From: Acidimicrobiales bacterium
GTDB taxonomy: Bacteria > Actinomycetota > Acidimicrobiia > Acidimicrobiales > JACCXE01
NCBI GenBank assembly: GCA_035546775.1
Contig: DASZWD010000001.1
Location: 1 to 58,726, forward strand
DNA: 58,726 bases
Direction: 5' to 3'
Below are positions 41,158 through 50,909 of this stretch, piece by piece; position 1 is the first letter of the stretch, and every line of letters starts with the position of its first letter. The notes under the pieces are model-generated. The model was given only the letters and a program-made list of their open reading frames with translations, searched no databases and was not told where the DNA came from. The translations under genes and the position numbers were made by a program.

Positions 41158-41262
41158 TCCCCGGCGGCGGCAACTCCATCCACTTCCACAGGATGCCGGA
41201 ATCGCCCGGCGCGTCCTAGTGCGGGAAGACACCGATCTTCGGGACCTTCGTCCCCTCAACTA
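41158..41262 (-). pseudogene. Possible coding remnant
   Basis: On the minus strand one frame reads [14 protein letters not shown], a TAG, and then [18 protein letters not shown]. Both pieces look like real protein and are in the same frame, separated by a stop. It may be a decayed gene end between MMPL and monooxygenase genes. The parent family is not recognised, and regulatory sites overlap it, so this is weak. Confidence 0.2.
41241..41254 (+). promoter_or_regulatory. DosR-box-like palindrome upstream of the monooxygenase
   Basis: GGGAC-CTTC-GTCCC, preceded by TTC, follows the 20-base DosR consensus TTSGGGACTWWAGTCCCSAA at 16 of 20 positions by eye. It shares TTCGGGACCTTCG with the site at 50570-50582. 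It lies 45 bases before the monooxygenase start and next to the palindrome at 41263. Confidence 0.4.
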
Positions 41263-41284
41263 AACTTGACCGCCTGGTCAAGTT
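41263..41284. promoter_or_regulatory. 22-bp palindromic operator before the monooxygenase gene
   Basis: Arms AACTTGACC and GGTCAAGTT with a 4-base centre GCCT. It ends 14 bases before the GTG start (41299), overlapping the expected promoter; TAAACT (41261-41266) could be a -10. Size and symmetry suit a TetR-family regulator encoded elsewhere. Confidence 0.6.
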
Positions 41285-41298
41285 CTGGGGGGAACACA

Positions 41299-43098
41299 GT
41301 GGCAATCGACACAGCAACCAAGGAAGCGCTGAAGCAGAAGTACCGCGCCGAGCGCGACAAGCGCCTGCGGGCCGACGGCAACGCGCAGTACCGCCACTTG
41401 GCGGGCACGCACCTCGAGGGCTACCTCACCGACCCCTACATCCCGGTGCAGGAGCGCGAGCCGCTGCGCGACCACGTGACGGTGGCCTTCATCGGGGGCG
41501 GTTTCGCCGGTCTCGTCACCGGTGCCCGTCTCGTCGAGCAGGGCATCACGGATGTGCGCATCATCGAGAAGGGCGGCGACTTCGGGGGGACCTGGTACTG
41601 GAACCGCTACCCGGGCGCCATGTGCGACACGGCGAGCTTCGTCTACATGCCGCTGCTCGAAGAGACCGGATACATGCCGACTGAGAAGTACGCCCGCGGT
41701 CCGGAGATCTACGAGCACTGCCAGCGCATCGGCAAGCAGTACGGCCTCTACGACAACGCGCTGTTCCACACCGAGGTGCGCGATCTCCGCTGGCGCGAGG
41801 CCGACTCGCGCTGGGTCATAAGCACGAACCGAGGCGACGAGTTCACCGCCCAGTACCTGGCTATGGGCACCGGACCGCTGCACGTGCCCAAGTTGCCGGG
41901 CATCCCCGGCATCGAGGATTTCGAGGGCCACTCGTTTCACACGTCGCGGTGGGACTACGCCTACACCGGCGGCGACCCCAAGGGCGCGCTGATGGAGCGG
42001 CTGGCGGACAAGCGCGTCGCCATCATCGGCACCGGCGCCACCGCCGTGCAGTGCATCCCGCATCTGGCGAAGGCGTGCGGGGAGCTGTTCGTGTTCCAGC
42101 GCACCCCGAGCTCCGTCGACGTGCGCGACAACCGCCCGACCGACCCCGAGTGGTTCAAGACAATCGCGACGCCGGGCTGGCAGCAGCGCTGGCTCGAGAA
42201 CTTCACCGCCAACCAGACCGGCGGCTGGGCCGAGGAAGACCTCGTGATGGACGGTTGGACCGATCTGTCGCGCCGCATCCGCGACCGCATCGCCACCCTC
42301 CCCGCTGATCAGATGACGCCTGAGGGCATGATGGCGGCATTCGAAGACGCCGACTTCGAGAAGATGGAAGAGATCCGCGCCCGCGTCGACGCGCTCGTCG
42401 CCGATCCCGACACGGCGCAGAACCTGAAGGCTTGGTACAACCAGTTGTGCAAGCGCCCGTGCTTCCACGACGAGTACTTGCAGTCCTACAACAACCCGAA
42501 CACGCACCTGATCGACACCGACGGCAAGGGCGTGGAGCGCATCACCAAGAACGCCGTGGTCGTGGCCGGCGTCGAGTACGAAGTCGACTGCATCATCTAT
42601 TCGACGGGGTTCGAGGTGGGCACGTCGTTCACCTCGCGGGCCAACTACGACCCCGTCGGTCGCGACGGCGTGCGCTTGTCGGAGTACTGGGCCGACGGCA
42701 TGCGCACCAAGCACGGCACGCACGTCCACGGCTTCCCGAACATGTTCATCGTGCAGCCGACGCAGGGCGCCAACCTGATTTCGAACGTGCCCCACAACCT
42801 CACCGAGTCGGGCAAGACGATCGCGCTCACGATCAAGCACGCCGTGGACAACGGTTACGAACAGATCGAGGTCACGAAGGAAGCCGAGCAGGAGTGGCTC
42901 GACCTCTTACTGAGCGGCCCGGGGCGCATGCTCGGCGCCAACTCCGAGTGCACCCCCGGCTACTACAACAACGAAGGCCAGCCGCTGGCCAACGGCGCGT
43001 CGCTGTTCGTCGGCTACCCGCAGGGCGCCATGGCGTACTTCGCCTACATCGCCGAGTGGCGCACCAACGGCCGCTTCGACGGCTTGGCGTTCTCGTAG
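41299..43098 (+). CDS. Baeyer-Villiger-type flavin monooxygenase
   Basis: About 599 aa, larger than the enzyme at 29443. N-terminal extension of ~70 residues, FAD motif [19 protein letters not shown] fingerprint [11 protein letters not shown] (FxGxxxHxxxW), NADPH motif [16 protein letters not shown], and [21 protein letters not shown] near the end split over positions ~445-465. It is of the long class similar to cyclopentadecanone/steroid-type BVMOs. I start at GTG 41299 after TGGGGGGAA; an in-frame TTG at 41266 lies inside the operator palindrome and is rejected. Substrate probably a cyclic or long-chain ketone. Confidence 0.92.
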
Positions 43099-45087: not shown

Positions 45088-46625
<1,538 letters not shown>

Positions 46626-46683
46626 TCGACGTCACCATCCTGATCGCAGGATGGGCTTCCAGCCGCTCGAGCGACCAGTGCCG

Positions 46684-46698
46684 ATGGTCCCAAGTCCC
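46684..46698 (-). promoter_or_regulatory. DosR/DevR-type binding site
   Basis: The minus strand reads GGGACTTGGGACCAT, which fits the mycobacterial DosR motif GGGACTTNNGNCCNT at every defined base. It lies 58 bases upstream of the flavin-protein gene and 41 bases before the response regulator, so it may serve both and autoregulation. Confidence 0.7.
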
Positions 46699-46739: not shown

Positions 46740-47390
46740 GTGGCTACCCGTGTGTTCTTGCTCGACGATCATGAGGTCGTTCGCCGTGGCGTCCGCGAGC
46801 TGCTCGGCGCTGAGCCCGACATGGAAATCGTCGGCGAAGCCGCCACCGCAGCCGAGGCGTTGAGCCGCATTCCGACCACGTCGCCGGAAGTGGCCATCCT
46901 CGACGTGCGGCTGCCCGACGGCGACGGCGTCGAAGTTTGCCGCGAGATTCGCTCGCTGCATCCCGAGATCGCCTGCATCATGCTCACGTCGTATTCCGAC
47001 GACGACGCGGTCTACGCGGCGATCATGGCCGGTGCGTCGGGCTACTTGCTCAAGCAAGTGCGGGGCACCGACCTGGTCGAGGGCGTGCGCCGCGTGGCCC
47101 GCGGCGAGTCGCTGCTCGACCCGGCCGTCACCGCCCGCGTCCTCGACCGCATCCGTCATCGCGAGGACAACGACGAGCTCGCCAGCTTGTCGACGCAGGA
47201 ACAGACGATCCTCGAGCTCATCGCCGAAGGCCTCACGAACCGCCAGATCGGCGAGCGCATGTTCCTCGCCGAGAAGACGGTGAAGAACTACGTGTCCAAC
47301 ATGCTGGGCAAGCTGGGGATGAGCCGGCGGGCCGAAGCCGCGGCATACGCGGCGCGCTTGTCGGAGCGCCGCGGCAAACCATCTCTCTGA
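46740..47390 (+). CDS. devR: DevR/DosR-like response regulator (NarL/LuxR family)
   Basis: 216 aa. Receiver domain: LLDDHEVVRRGVRELLGAEP, phospho-acceptor D55 in AILDVRLPDGDG, LTSYSDDDA and LKQV. Output domain ~148-205: LTNRQIGERMFLAEKTVKNY with VSNMLGKLGM. This recognition helix is the same as in mycobacterial DevR/DosR apart from conservative changes, so the same DNA motif should be bound. The receiver also matches DevR closely (VRLPDGDG, SYSDDDA). GTG start. Partner kinase at 45088. Name is given by strong resemblance, not proof. Confidence 0.9.
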   Translation: MATRVFLLDDHEVVRRGVRELLGAEPDMEIVGEAATAAEALSRIPTTSPEVAILDVRLPDGDGVEVCREIRSLHPEIACIMLTSYSDDDAVYAAIMAGASGYLLKQVRGTDLVEGVRRVARGESLLDPAVTARVLDRIRHREDNDELASLSTQEQTILELIAEGLTNRQIGERMFLAEKTVKNYVSNMLGKLGMSRRAEAAAYAARLSERRGKPSL

Positions 47391-47419
47391 CAGATCGGGA
47401 CCATCAGGGCCGTCCATCT

Positions 47420-47433
47420 GGGCCATTCGGCCC
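47420..47433 (+). promoter_or_regulatory. DosR-type palindrome upstream of the multicopper oxidase
   Basis: GGGCC-ATTC-GGCCC, same 5+4+5 geometry as GGGAC-N4-GTCCC. It lies 35 bases before the oxidase ATG. A separate GGGACCAT half-site is at 47397-47404. It could also act as a terminator stem for the regulator gene. Confidence 0.5.
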
Positions 47434-47468
47434 TACGCCAAAAGACGGACAAATCCGAATCTTGATGC

Positions 47469-48836
47469 ATGACTCTTGCATCGCTGCCCGAGGGTTCGCG
47501 CCGGGACAACCTCTTGGTCGTTACCGTTTTCGTCGCCGCCCTGTCGCTGGTCGTAGCGGCCGTTGGTGTTGGCTTCGGCTGGCGGGCCATTGATCAGACG
47601 AAGGGCACGGGCACCAGCGTCGCGGCGGGGAACACGTCCGCGCCGGCCATGGTCAACCTCAAGGAATTCAAGATCGACGACGCGACCGTTCCCGAGGGCG
47701 GCTCGATCATGGCCATGAACGCCGGGTCGGTCACCCACAACCTGACCATCGAAGGCCAGGGCCTCGCCACGTCGAACCTCGACGCCGGCAAGAACGAGAC
47801 GCTCGACGTTTCCAAACTGAAGCCCGGCACCTACACGATGTTCTGCTCGATCCCGGGCCACCGTGAAGCCGGTATGCAGGCGAAGCTGACGATCACCAGC
47901 GGCGGCTCGTCGTCCTCGGAATCGATGTCCTCGATGTCGTCGTCGTCGGGCACGATGGACTACGCCGCCATGACCAAGTCGATGCTCGACAGCATGACGG
48001 CGTTCCCGGCCAAGACCGAAGGCCTCGGCAACCAGCCGCTCGCGCCGACCAAGGTCAAGGGCAACGAGAAGTGGTTCGACATCACCGCCGCGATCACGAA
48101 GTGGGAAGTGTCACCGGGCAAGATCGTCGACGCCTGGACCTTCAACGGGACCGTTCCAGGGCCCCAGATCCGCGTCAACGTCGGCGACAAAGTGCACCTG
48201 ATCCTGCACAACAAGACGCCGATGGCGACCGACCTGCACTTGCACGGCATCAACGTCGACAACAAGTACGACGGGGTATCGCCCTTTACGCAGGACCCCA
48301 TCAAGCCCGGCGACAGCTTCGAGTACGTCTGGACGGCGGACGAGCCCGCAGTGGCGATGTACCACCCGCACTTCATGTCGCAGGTCAGCATGCCCAACGG
48401 CATGTTCGGCACGATCATCCAGGGCGACATGCCGCTGCCGGCCGAATACCAGGGCGTGCAGATCGCGCAGCACTTCCCGATGGTGCTCAACGACTCGGGC
48501 GTCATCGGCTACAGCCTCAACGGCAAGAGCTTCCCGGCCACCGCGCCGGTCGTGGCCAACAAGGGTGATTGGATCCTCGTCGACTACTTCAACGAGGGTT
48601 CGCAGTACCACCCGATGCACATGCACCAGTTCGACCAGATCGTGATCGCGAAGGACGGATTCCCCGTGCCGGCGCCGTACAAGGTCGACACGCTCAGCGT
48701 GGGCCCAGGCGAGCGCTACACCGTGCTGGTGCACCTCGACAAGGCCGGCACCTGGGTGTGGCACTGCCACATTCTCCCGCACGTCGAAAAGGACGACGGG
48801 ATGTACGGCATGGTCACCGCCGTGATCGTCAAGTAA
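47469..48836 (+). CDS. Membrane-anchored cupredoxin-multicopper oxidase fusion
   Basis: 455 aa. One N-terminal transmembrane helix at ~15-38. A plastocyanin-like domain at ~55-145 has Cu ligands in THNLT, MFCSIPGHREAGM. A Ser/Met-rich linker follows (~148-165). Two multicopper-oxidase domains come next: LHLHGINVD, YHPHFMSQ, then HPMHMHQFD and WHCHILPHVEKDDGM (type 1 plus trinuclear ligands). It looks like a two-domain laccase-type enzyme, not a NirK with type 1 copper in the first domain. The fused cupredoxin may deliver electrons. Its DosR-like site suggests induction at low O2 or NO. Natural substrate unknown. Confidence 0.85.
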   Translation: MTLASLPEGSRRDNLLVVTVFVAALSLVVAAVGVGFGWRAIDQTKGTGTSVAAGNTSAPAMVNLKEFKIDDATVPEGGSIMAMNAGSVTHNLTIEGQGLATSNLDAGKNETLDVSKLKPGTYTMFCSIPGHREAGMQAKLTITSGGSSSSESMSSMSSSSGTMDYAAMTKSMLDSMTAFPAKTEGLGNQPLAPTKVKGNEKWFDITAAITKWEVSPGKIVDAWTFNGTVPGPQIRVNVGDKVHLILHNKTPMATDLHLHGINVDNKYDGVSPFTQDPIKPGDSFEYVWTADEPAVAMYHPHFMSQVSMPNGMFGTIIQGDMPLPAEYQGVQIAQHFPMVLNDSGVIGYSLNGKSFPATAPVVANKGDWILVDYFNEGSQYHPMHMHQFDQIVIAKDGFPVPAPYKVDTLSVGPGERYTVLVHLDKAGTWVWHCHILPHVEKDDGMYGMVTAVIVK

Positions 48837-49563
48837 CGACGAGTTCGCCCTTCATGCCGGCCGCTTCGTGGCCGGGGATGGCGCAGATGAATCGGTAGGT
48901 CCCGGCCGGGACGTTCTTGATGACAACCCGGCCGCGGCCGCTGGTGGCGACCCGCAAATTCACGTGCAGCTTGCGAATCGTGAACGTGTGCCAGAACAGG
49001 TCCTGGTTGCGGAAGACGACGCCGATGTCGCCGCTGGGCGCGGTCAGGCGGTCGGTGGAGAACTCGACGTTGTGCGCACTGATGCGCAGGTCGCCGGGGT
49101 GCGCGCGTTCGGCGTCGCGACCGAGCGCGGGTACGCACACCACGAGCAGTGCGGCAATGACGACGCCGGTAATCCCAACCGGCAGCGCGGCGGCCTCGCG
49201 TATCCGGCGCGCCCGCAGCACCACCGCGACGAGTCCGAGGACGGCCGCGACCGACAACACCGCCGGGACCGCCGCGCCGATCACCGACGGGGCGGCGTGC
49301 GTGAGGTCGACGACCGCCGTCAGCATCCAGAAGCCCTGGTTCACGAACAGCGCGCCGACACCGATCCAGCCCACGCGCTCCCGCCGCGTGAAGGTGATGG
49401 CGGTAAAGCCGATCAGCAACACGCCGATAGCGAGCGACTCGCGGTCGAAGACCGCGGCACCCCGAGCGATTTCGATGACACCGCTGAGCGCGGCGCAGGC
49501 GCGTGCGAGTGTGTCCCACCGCGACGAGGGGTACGACATGGTCATGCTGACCATTCTCATCAT
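48829..49563 (-). CDS. Multi-pass membrane protein with C-terminal cupredoxin domain
   Basis: About 244 aa. Five or so N-terminal transmembrane helices (SLAIGVLLIGFTAITF; VGALFVNQGFWMLTAVV; VIGAAVPAVLSVAAVLGLVAVVL; VGITGVVIAALLVVCVPAL), then an extracellular cupredoxin domain with RFICAIPGHEAAGM supplying Cys, His and Met and a His in FWHTFTI. It converges on the multicopper oxidase with an 8-base overlap. The two may exchange electrons. Several ATG starts (49563, 49545, 49539) are possible; I give the longest. Confidence 0.72.
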   Translation of the reverse strand: MMRMVSMTMSYPSSRWDTLARACAALSGVIEIARGAAVFDRESLAIGVLLIGFTAITFTRRERVGWIGVGALFVNQGFWMLTAVVDLTHAAPSVIGAAVPAVLSVAAVLGLVAVVLRARRIREAAALPVGITGVVIAALLVVCVPALGRDAERAHPGDLRISAHNVEFSTDRLTAPSGDIGVVFRNQDLFWHTFTIRKLHVNLRVATSGRGRVVIKNVPAGTYRFICAIPGHEAAGMKGELVVT

Positions 49564-49624
49564 CGCAGTGTTGCTTCTGCTGCTTCTCGGCGGCTGGGGC
49601 TACGGGTACCGCTCCCGGCCCTAA
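49538..49624 (+). CDS. 28-residue single-pass membrane peptide
   Basis: MVMLTILIIAVLLLLLLGGWGYGYRS plus RP. One hydrophobic helix with a Gly/Tyr/Arg tail, similar to the DUF3309-type small membrane proteins (LLLLLGGWGYG). A good ribosome binding site GAGGGG lies six bases before the ATG. It overlaps the start of the divergent cupredoxin membrane gene; its ATG and the other gene's CAT share two bases. Small enough to be missed by automatic methods. Function unknown. Confidence 0.6.
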   Translation: MVMLTILIIAVLLLLLLGGWGYGYRSRP

Positions 49625-49628
49625 CAGT

Positions 49629-50495
49629 TCAGCGCAGCAGTTCGGCGCGTACGACGGTGACGGCGCAGGGTGCGTGATGTACGCAACGCCGGCTCACCGA
49701 GCCCAACAGCCAATGCACGACGTCGGAGCGGCCGGCGCCGACGATGAGTTGGTGAGCGCCATTCGCGGCTTCGAGCAGCGCCGCGGCTGCGTTGCCGGCG
49801 ACGGCTAACGGCTCAATGGCCGGCGGTAGTGGCGCCTGGTCGGCTCGGGCGCGATCGATCATGTCGTCGATCAGCGTGCGGCCGTAGTCGCCCATCTCGG
49901 CGGGCACGGCGACGCCTGGGAGTGAGGAACCCACCGGGTACACGAACATGATCGTGAGCGGAAGGTGCCGCTCGGAGGCACTCGCCATCGCGAACGTCAG
50001 GGCTGCCTGCGCGTCGGCGCTGCCGTCGACTCCGACCACGACGCGTGCGCCGTAGGCGGGCGCTTCCGACGGGACGACGGTGACGGGTCCGGCGCCGAGG
50101 TGGACGCACTGATCCGCCACCGAACCGAGGAAGGCGCGACCGACGAATCCGTGACCCTGGCGGCCCACGACGAGCTGGCGGGCCTCACGTCCGCGTTCAC
50201 ACAGCACGTGAGCGGCGTCGCCTTCGACGAGCACGCTGTCGACGCGCGACGGGGCGGCGCCCGCACGGTCGAGCGCATCGTGGAGGGCCGCCTCGAGCAC
50301 GAACTTTCCATGCGCTTCGATTTCGGCGCGATCGACCGGCACGGGAATCGCTTCGGGGGCGATCGCGGGGGTTGACCACACGTGGACGACCTCGAGGTCG
50401 GCGCCCACGACCTTGGCTTCGGCGATCGCCCAGTCGAGCGCCCGCCCCGACGCGTCCGAGCCGTCCGTTCCGACGACGATGCAGTGGCGTGACAT
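49629..50495 (-). CDS. Two-domain universal stress protein
   Basis: 288 aa, tandem UspA domains (~1-142 and ~148-288). First: VVGTDGSDASGRALDWAIAEA, VGRQGHGFVGRAFLGSVADQCVH. Second: VVGVDGSADAQAALTFAMA, VGAGRSDVVHWLLGSVSRRCVHH. The G-2x-G-9x-G(S) ATP-binding pattern is visible in both. This size class (about 290-300 aa, tandem) is characteristic of mycobacterial DosR-regulon proteins such as Rv2623. ATG start at 50495 with AGGAGG upstream; DosR-like site at 50573. Confidence 0.92.
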   Translation of the reverse strand: MSRHCIVVGTDGSDASGRALDWAIAEAKVVGADLEVVHVWSTPAIAPEAIPVPVDRAEIEAHGKFVLEAALHDALDRAGAAPSRVDSVLVEGDAAHVLCERGREARQLVVGRQGHGFVGRAFLGSVADQCVHLGAGPVTVVPSEAPAYGARVVVGVDGSADAQAALTFAMASASERHLPLTIMFVYPVGSSLPGVAVPAEMGDYGRTLIDDMIDRARADQAPLPPAIEPLAVAGNAAAALLEAANGAHQLIVGAGRSDVVHWLLGSVSRRCVHHAPCAVTVVRAELLR

Positions 50496-50572
50496 ACACG
50501 CACCTCCTTGACTCCCTCATGGTGCTCCCGGGGGCGCCGCCCGGACAGGGGCCAATCGTCGATTTCTGATTC

Positions 50573-50587
50573 GGGACCTTCGCCTCT
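50573..50587 (+). promoter_or_regulatory. DosR-type site between universal stress protein and STAS genes
   Basis: GGGACCTTCGCCTCT matches the mycobacterial motif GGGACTTNNGNCCNT at nine of eleven defined bases. It sits about 78 bases upstream of the stress protein gene and 34 bases before the STAS gene. Flanking GGACAG/CTGTCC repeats (50533-50538, 50585-50590) frame it. Confidence 0.45.
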
Positions 50588-50621
50588 GTCCTGAAAACGT
50601 GCGCTCGCGGATCATCGACCC

Positions 50622-50909
50622 ATGGCTCGGACGCTCACGGACCTTGTTGTGCCTTTTTCCGGTTATGTCGGCCGGGACCAATTCGCCTTCGCGAAACGGG
50701 CGCTGCTCGGGGTCGGAAACGAGGTCGAGCAGGCCGTGCTCGACTTGCGCGACGCCCGCGGCATCGACCTCTCGACGATCGATTCGTTGCTCGACGCCGC
50801 CGAAGTCCTGCAGCAGCGCGGCGTCCGCGTCGTCGTCGAGCCGGGATGGGCCCGCGACGCACTTCATCTCACCGGCCATGCGGCCATGACAGAACGAGAA
50901 CCAGCATGA
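50622..50909 (+). CDS. STAS-domain protein
   Basis: 95 aa. Short STAS (anti-sigma antagonist-like) domain: VVPFSGYVGRDQFAFAKRALLG, VLDLRDARGIDLSTIDSLLDAAEVL, VRVVVEPG. The residue usually phosphorylated in SpoIIAA-type proteins is in DLSTIDSLL. No cognate anti-sigma factor gene is adjacent. It is translationally coupled (ATGA) to the SDR downstream. Confidence 0.72.
   Translation: MARTLTDLVVPFSGYVGRDQFAFAKRALLGVGNEVEQAVLDLRDARGIDLSTIDSLLDAAEVLQQRGVRVVVEPGWARDALHLTGHAAMTEREPA

Follow-up and report, generated by a model that had tools for sequence, protein, structure and literature searches.

A probable membrane-anchored three-cupredoxin oxidase of a DosR-type regulon in Acidimicrobiia

In the present study, we analyzed a stretch of 58.7 kb (the window, taken at its full length), in which a gene for a copper oxidase with an additional N-terminal type-1 cupredoxin is preceded by a DosR-like palindrome and by genes for a DevR-like regulator and a heme-GAF kinase (Table 1). 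The oxidase is probably an O2-reducing, membrane-anchored three-cupredoxin enzyme of a DosR-type regulon, from which the neighbouring membrane cupredoxin and membrane peptide are to be excluded. From the types of the regulator, sensor and site, which, like the domain anatomy, the copper ligands and their conservation in the family, are read from the sequence itself, we infer that the oxidase is expressed under low O2 or NO. An initial annotation of the locus had regarded the oxidase, the membrane cupredoxin and the peptide as one copper redox module. That interpretation is partly supported, in that the components are genuine and the trio is not.

Table 1. Positions of the oxidase gene and surrounding features in the window
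Feature	Position	Strand	Basis or remark
Sensor histidine kinase, DevS/DosT-like, one heme-type GAF	45088..46224	+	structure relatives and Pfam
Pyridoxamine-phosphate-oxidase-like flavoprotein	46221..46625	-	Pyridox_ox_2 (Pfam)
DosR-like palindrome, flavoprotein/regulator intergenic region	46675..46694	.	15.3 bits, rank 2 in window
DevR/DosR-like response regulator	46740..47390	+	3c3w best solved relative
DosR/OsdR-like palindrome TCTGGGCCATTCGGCCCTAC	47417..47436	.	core 47420-47433; 14.5 bits
Oxidase, 455 aa	47469..48836	+	Pfam, 55-sequence alignment, AlphaFold2
Membrane cupredoxin, 244 aa	48829-49563	-	Pfam Cupredoxin_1
Single-helix membrane peptide ORF, likely 26 aa	49544-49624	+	homologues' common start

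Domain structure, copper sites and distribution of the oxidase

The Pfam domains of the oxidase are, in order, Copper-bind/Cupredoxin_1, Cu-oxidase_3 and Cu-oxidase_2. One hydrophobic segment begins near residue 16, and in the AlphaFold2 model (a monomer predicted from 55 sequences, mean pLDDT 87.7) a membrane helix at about residues 11-38 is followed by a cupredoxin fold at about 60-144 and by two further cupredoxin folds up to residue 455. The N-terminal cupredoxin is of type 1, with the copper ligands H90, C126, H131 and M136, and a linker containing Ser and Met joins it to a two-domain multicopper oxidase part (about 185-455). The latter contains four HxH motifs that supply the histidines of the trinuclear site (257, 259, 299, 301, 384, 386, 432 and 434), and its second domain carries the type-1 residues H381, C433 and H438. 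The N-terminal cupredoxin is present in all of the 55 aligned sequences, and both its four ligands and the three type-1 residues of domain 2 are invariant among them, as are the trinuclear histidines except H299 (54 of 55). These data support the earlier proposal that a membrane-tethered cupredoxin is joined to a complete laccase-type copper site. The type-1 loop of domain 2 is two residues longer than the loops of CueO and CotA, and the axial ligand of this copper is therefore uncertain; of the two candidate positions, M445 is variable (M, L or V) and M448 is invariant in the 55 sequences. Met makes up 5.8% of the linkers and 3.4% of the oxidase part; the window linker has six Met in 41 residues. 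As a Cu(I) site the linker is a weak candidate, the enrichment being slight and uneven.

The best structural match of the model is 2zwn (Z 30.3, rmsd 1.8, 253 residues), followed by 3g5w (Z 29.9). In alignments, these two enzymes and the copper nitrite reductases carry a type-1 Cys in domain 1, where the oxidase family has Ala, Pro or Ser (position 300, 55 of 55 sequences). Because this Cys is lost, the oxidase is not a nitrite reductase of the NirK kind, which is characterized by a type-1 Cys in domain 1. It has the four-HxH trinuclear site of type B two-domain oxidases and, within the core, a type-1 site in domain 2 only, but exceeds their two cupredoxin domains; since a third cupredoxin is present, it is a fused variant of the type B kind and not a plain member. 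Thus, as judged from its sequence, the enzyme is a type B two-domain oxidase with a tethered cupredoxin and not a nitrite reductase.

Acidimicrobiia are a large, little-studied group of soil and water actinobacteria. Of 148 genomes of the order (the window's own genome excluded), about 26 encode a full-length or near-full-length fusion; shorter or split relatives were also found. An alignment-based scan of genome contigs, which gave no match when queried with a single sequence, yielded 80 named loci throughout Acidimicrobiia and in Nitriliruptoraceae. The labels of nearly all of the loci are Acidimicrobiia, Acidimicrobiales, Ilumatobacter, Microthrixaceae or Actinomycetota; Nitriliruptoraceae are represented among the more distant loci, and a few labels of metagenome-assembled genomes (e.g. 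Bifidobacterium, Acidobacteria) are probably wrong. Intact fusions of roughly 420-540 aa are encoded at nearly all of the 80 loci; the oxidase of L177 is truncated by the contig end. Cultured carriers are Desertimonas flava (L117, with the kinase and the regulator nearby) and Ilumatobacter nonamiensis (L151). At two loci, L090 (G005:C9) and L099 (G130:C176), the cupredoxin and the two-domain oxidase are encoded by separate adjoining genes, an arrangement that may either precede the fusion or derive from it. The genome from which the window was taken (G000) also encodes a second cupredoxin-fused copper enzyme (G000:C50:31419-32321; L002, L096), the domain 1 of which is NirK-like (MYHCGTAPALHHIGNGMYG); it is 29-36% identical to the oxidase and is possibly a true three-domain nitrite reductase.

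The DosR-like site and the regulatory genes

The DosR-type switch, which senses O2 and NO, sends the tuberculosis bacterium into dormancy. The site before the oxidase gene, GGGCCATTCGGCCC, is centred 42.5 bp upstream of the ATG. Compared with the 20-mer consensus of M. tuberculosis alone, it is unremarkable (12 of 20 positions, low rank); it fits the Streptomyces OsdR form better, with two bases different from the SCO0214 site of S. coelicolor and a resemblance to the OsdR consensus AGGGCCGATCGGCCCT. It was convincing only after the homologous promoters were tested. With a matrix trained on these promoters, the site ranks third in the window, and its score was reached by none of 500 dinucleotide shuffles of its own region. 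The untrained M. tuberculosis core GGGAC-N4-GTCCC was found, with at least 9 of 10 positions matched, in 44 of 79 oxidase promoters, whereas dinucleotide shuffles gave 3.7 and randomly chosen places of the same loci 1.3. The trained matrix exceeded 12 bits in 57 of the 79 (0.2 expected), a comparison that is partly circular and is used as support only, and about a quarter of the homologous promoters have no clear site. At a threshold of at least 8 of 10 positions, the core was present at 21 of the 26 loci where DevR is close and at 40 of the 53 where it is not. The site is thus about as frequent where no DevR gene is near, and is not a by-product of linkage; nor does close relatedness explain it, since only 18 promoter pairs are mutually similar. 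The DosR-like site described in the initial annotation is therefore real, and the homologous promoters make a stronger case for it than could be made from the single sequence.

Genome-wide statistics of the site were obtained by pattern searches. The pattern GGGMCNWWNGKCCC is matched exactly at nine places of the 3.75 Mb assembly, as against three for the reversed control; two of the nine fall in the window, one of them being the oxidase site, and the remainder include sites at the 5' end of a second DevS-like kinase gene and beside a gene for a protein that resembles Rv2629 by eye. In 99 genomes, the palindrome pattern occurred 460 times versus 263 for the control where a close DevR is present, and 133 versus 176 times where it is absent (p = 2e-6, with the 99 genomes treated as independent, which related genomes are not). 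A fixed box-to-start spacing of 42.5 bp was rejected as a general rule: the start codons of the homologues mostly lie 60-90 bp away from the box centre, and spacings of 42.5-44.5 bp were seen only in L101, L103, L106, L109 and the window. In the window, this spacing suggests a leaderless transcript, an idea that is limited to a subset of the family since most homologues have the longer spacing.

Other palindromes of this type were observed. The best-scoring one of the window (41241-41254, GGGACCTTCGTCCC, 17.9 bits) lies just upstream of a FAD monooxygenase-like gene (41266-43098), and a weaker one (50570-50589, 9.3 bits) lies between the divergent genes for a universal stress protein (49629-50495, minus strand) and an ORF at 50622-50909 (plus strand). 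Elsewhere in the same genome, a palindrome (L194, G000:C30:4502-4515) is located upstream of the gene for the 341-aa protein resembling, by eye, the DosR-regulated Rv2629, with a monooxygenase-like gene on the opposite side. The second heme-GAF DevS-like kinase gene has a DosR-like box at its 5' end (L195, G000:C30 around 38442), and about 20 kb from it is the gene for a second DevR-like regulator (G000:C30:58882), 69% identical to the first.

The regulator and kinase genes of the window are directly upstream of the oxidase gene. The best solved relative of the regulator is M. tuberculosis DevR (3c3w, 1.5e-72), and the stretch FLAEKTVKNYVS of its recognition helix is identical to that of DevR. 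The kinase has the Pfam domains GAF, HisKA_3 and HATPase_c. Its sensor domain matches the heme GAF-A domains of DosT (2vzw, 1.4e-49) and DevS (2y8h, 3.6e-46), and its other best solved relatives are DevS/DosT ATPase domains. H111 of the kinase aligns with the His of the HPPM stretch in DevS/DosT GAF-A, which we take, from the DevS construct, to be the DevS heme ligand H149. As far as can be judged at this level, the locus thus has the characters of a DosR-type regulon, namely the DevR recognition stretch, a heme-GAF kinase of the DevS/DosT type and a site conserved between species.

The regulator, the kinase and the pyridoxamine-phosphate-oxidase-like protein form the commonest neighbour clusters of the 80 oxidase loci. 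A regulator with more than 50% identity was present within the fetched stretch at 27 of them, mostly 1-4 kb away, and the flavoprotein at 25. Overall, the regulator and the kinase are each linked to the oxidase at 27-28 of the 80 loci (about one third), whereas only 0.2-0.3 linked regulators are expected in 1.07 Mb, because a DevR-bearing genome has about one such gene. At the genome level, the co-occurrence of the oxidase and DevR was 15/19 versus 36/80 (Fisher p = 0.007; the test assumes independent genomes, which related genomes are not). A close DevR was absent from four of the 19 fusion-bearing genomes, two of which are incomplete.

Neighbouring genes and possible functions of the oxidase

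The genes for the oxidase and the membrane cupredoxin are convergent and overlap tail to tail by 8 bases. As described initially, both encode membrane parts and cupredoxin domains, and the Cu loops CSIPGHREAGM (oxidase) and CAIPGHEAAGM (membrane cupredoxin) are found in the sequences. The adjacency of the genes, the similarity of these loops and the roughly four predicted membrane segments of the membrane cupredoxin would fit a single membrane electron path composed of the oxidase, the membrane cupredoxin and the peptide. However, the loops are alike because both families have this kind of loop in common; it is seen across the fusion oxidases as well as in membrane cupredoxin homologues. Since, in addition, the two cupredoxin domains are only about 30% identical, the similarity of the loops says little in favour of a pair. 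A membrane cupredoxin gene was found near the oxidase at none of the 80 loci, the weak "memCup" matches there being the oxidase's own N-terminal domain. Clear homologues are present in four genomes (G001, G002, G010 and G055), and a partial one in G121. The four gave no match to the fusion oxidase; the homologues sit at other loci, and no common neighbourhood was seen among them. Furthermore, in the window no DosR box was scored with the trained matrix at the 5' end of the membrane cupredoxin gene.

The peptide ORF exists, but its length, first given as 28 residues, is likely to be 26 with a start at 49544, since the window peptide and its four closest homologues all start with MLTIL. G001, G002, G007 and G010 encode homologues of 25-28 residues that follow the pattern MLTILLIVLLVVLLFGGxGYxRRGR, and a profile search found the family in scattered genomes of Acidimicrobiia, where it stands at unrelated loci; in G277, one contig carries two copies. 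The four homologues that were inspected have neither an oxidase gene nor a membrane cupredoxin gene beside them. The peptide is thus genuine but distinct, a member of a stand-alone family of single-membrane-helix peptides. The initial annotation had itself held that a lack of co-conservation would tell against the module, and neither the membrane cupredoxin nor the peptide is co-conserved with the oxidase. On these comparative grounds the two are unrelated neighbours and not part of the oxidase system, and a common electron path of the three is hardly credible.

The possible activities of the oxidase itself may be weighed as follows. The initial annotation had also considered nitrite reduction, and a three-domain enzyme of the NirK kind that reduces nitrite or NO, with a cupredoxin fused to NirK as in Hyphomicrobium, would agree with the shared domain order, with the Foldseek ranks of its structures (fourth to seventh; 6tfo, 6tfd, 2dv6) and with NO being a DosR signal. 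However, the Hyphomicrobium enzyme aligns poorly with the oxidase overall (rmsd about 14.6), the NirK equivalog model gives 57 bits against a cut-off of 296, and the lack of the domain-1 type-1 Cys in every sequence, the type-1 site in domain 2 and the complete set of trinuclear histidines are unlike NirK; nitrite reduction is thus disfavoured and such an enzyme very improbable. An ordinary laccase that oxidizes phenols in the manner of small laccases, and that came under stress control by chance, would be in line with the closest solved structures, which are two-domain laccases or oxidases (2zwn, 3g5w), and with the slow oxidation of phenols by a type B two-domain oxidase (PMC13151041). We think this doubtful. 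Both the anchoring in the membrane and the additional type-1 site, which is invariant, point to an electron donor that is a protein or resides in the membrane, and the regulatory site is conserved across the class. A tentative possibility is a cuprous or ferrous oxidase for metal safety, like CueO or MmcO, that oxidizes, outside the membrane, Cu(I) or Fe(II) accumulating at low O2; the DosR control would then be anticipatory, and this would be one possible substrate assignment within the preferred explanation. The complete trinuclear site, the mild Met enrichment of the linker and a weak match to the TIGR01480 copper-resistance oxidase family are consistent with it. On the other hand, the Met enrichment is weak and differs between homologues, copper-homeostasis genes are not prominent among the frequent neighbours of the 80 loci, and the promoter site is DosR-like.

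We therefore return to the reading of the protein as an O2-reducing oxidase under DosR-type control. A fall in O2, or the binding of NO or CO, would cause the heme-GAF kinase to phosphorylate the DevR-like regulator, which would bind the palindrome before the ATG and activate the gene, probably as a leaderless transcript. The product would be anchored in the membrane with its three cupredoxin domains outside the cytoplasm. Electrons may enter by way of the tethered N-terminal type-1 copper, or may go straight to the type-1 copper of domain 2; they would then pass to the trinuclear site, where O2 would be reduced to water; by analogy with other two-domain oxidases, this site is probably at the interface of a homotrimer. 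Most simply, the extra, invariant type-1 cupredoxin would be the electron entry point, as in cupredoxin-fused nitrite reductases. The substrate may be Cu(I), Fe(II), a phenol or quinol, or a membrane electron carrier, and the role may be metal oxidation, O2 scavenging or that of an electron sink. That scarcity of O2 should induce an enzyme that reduces O2 is a paradox, unless the enzyme serves O2 scavenging or metal handling or uses another acceptor. A further proposal, which is speculative and rather unlikely, is that the class-wide family is a core enzyme of the DosR regulon of Acidimicrobiia and serves dormant cells as a terminal electron sink, either when O2 is very low or by use of another acceptor. 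If true, the dormancy response would have a copper-based branch unknown in mycobacteria, and the purpose of the slow two-domain oxidases would be answered.

Comparison with known systems

Like the fusion oxidase, MmcO of M. tuberculosis and CueO of E. coli are extracytoplasmic multicopper oxidases with a trinuclear site. They consist of three domains and are controlled by copper, whereas the fusion oxidase has a two-domain core with a cupredoxin and a DosR-like site. The closest solved chains by sequence (2zwn and 3g5w) differ from the fusion oxidase in having the type-1 Cys in domain 1. The three-domain NirK of Hyphomicrobium denitrificans (2dv6, 6tfo) likewise consists of an N-terminal cupredoxin and a two-domain copper enzyme, but NirK has its type-1 site in domain 1 and no trinuclear cluster, whereas the fusion oxidase lacks the domain-1 Cys and has the complete cluster. 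A two-domain copper enzyme with an extra cupredoxin is also seen in the Nitrosopumilus maritimus multicopper oxidase 9cck, which was matched here by structure comparison only; unlike in the fusion oxidase, the cupredoxin is C-terminal and the enzyme is archaeal. Type B two-domain multicopper oxidases (SLAC; CjMCO of Cellvibrio japonicus, PMC13151041) have two cupredoxin domains, the type-1 site in domain 2 and complete trinuclear histidines, as in the core of the oxidase. Unlike these, the fusion oxidase has in addition an N-terminal membrane helix and type-1 cupredoxin, and a DosR-type promoter, and its loop HCHILxHxExxxGMFGM is longer than theirs. The physiological role of type B enzymes has been called poorly understood, and the same 2026 study suggested that slow reoxidation by O2 could mean either adaptation to low oxygen or the use of another oxidant (PMC13151041). 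The conserved DosR site before a large type B family makes this idea directly testable.

Each component of the present system is of a known kind, and what is combined is the fusion and class-wide control of the DosR type. In the open-access literature, we found neither a description of a fused type B enzyme with such control nor a report linking DosR with a multicopper oxidase, although a description elsewhere is possible. In the study of OsdR of S. coelicolor, which binds sites of the AGGGCCGATCGGCCCT type, the word "copper" does not occur and the target table contains no multicopper oxidase, while the predicted targets include the pyridoxamine-phosphate oxidase gene SCO0214 (PMC5069765). With the DosR/DevR regulon of M. 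tuberculosis and OsdKR of S. coelicolor (PMC5069765), the system described here shares the heme-GAF kinase, palindromic GGGxC-N4-GxCCC sites and neighbouring genes for a universal stress protein and a pyridoxamine-phosphate-oxidase-like protein; the identity of the recognition stretch is to DevR. Thus, a dormancy regulon known from mycobacteria and Streptomyces would extend to Acidimicrobiia, with a copper enzyme as its target.
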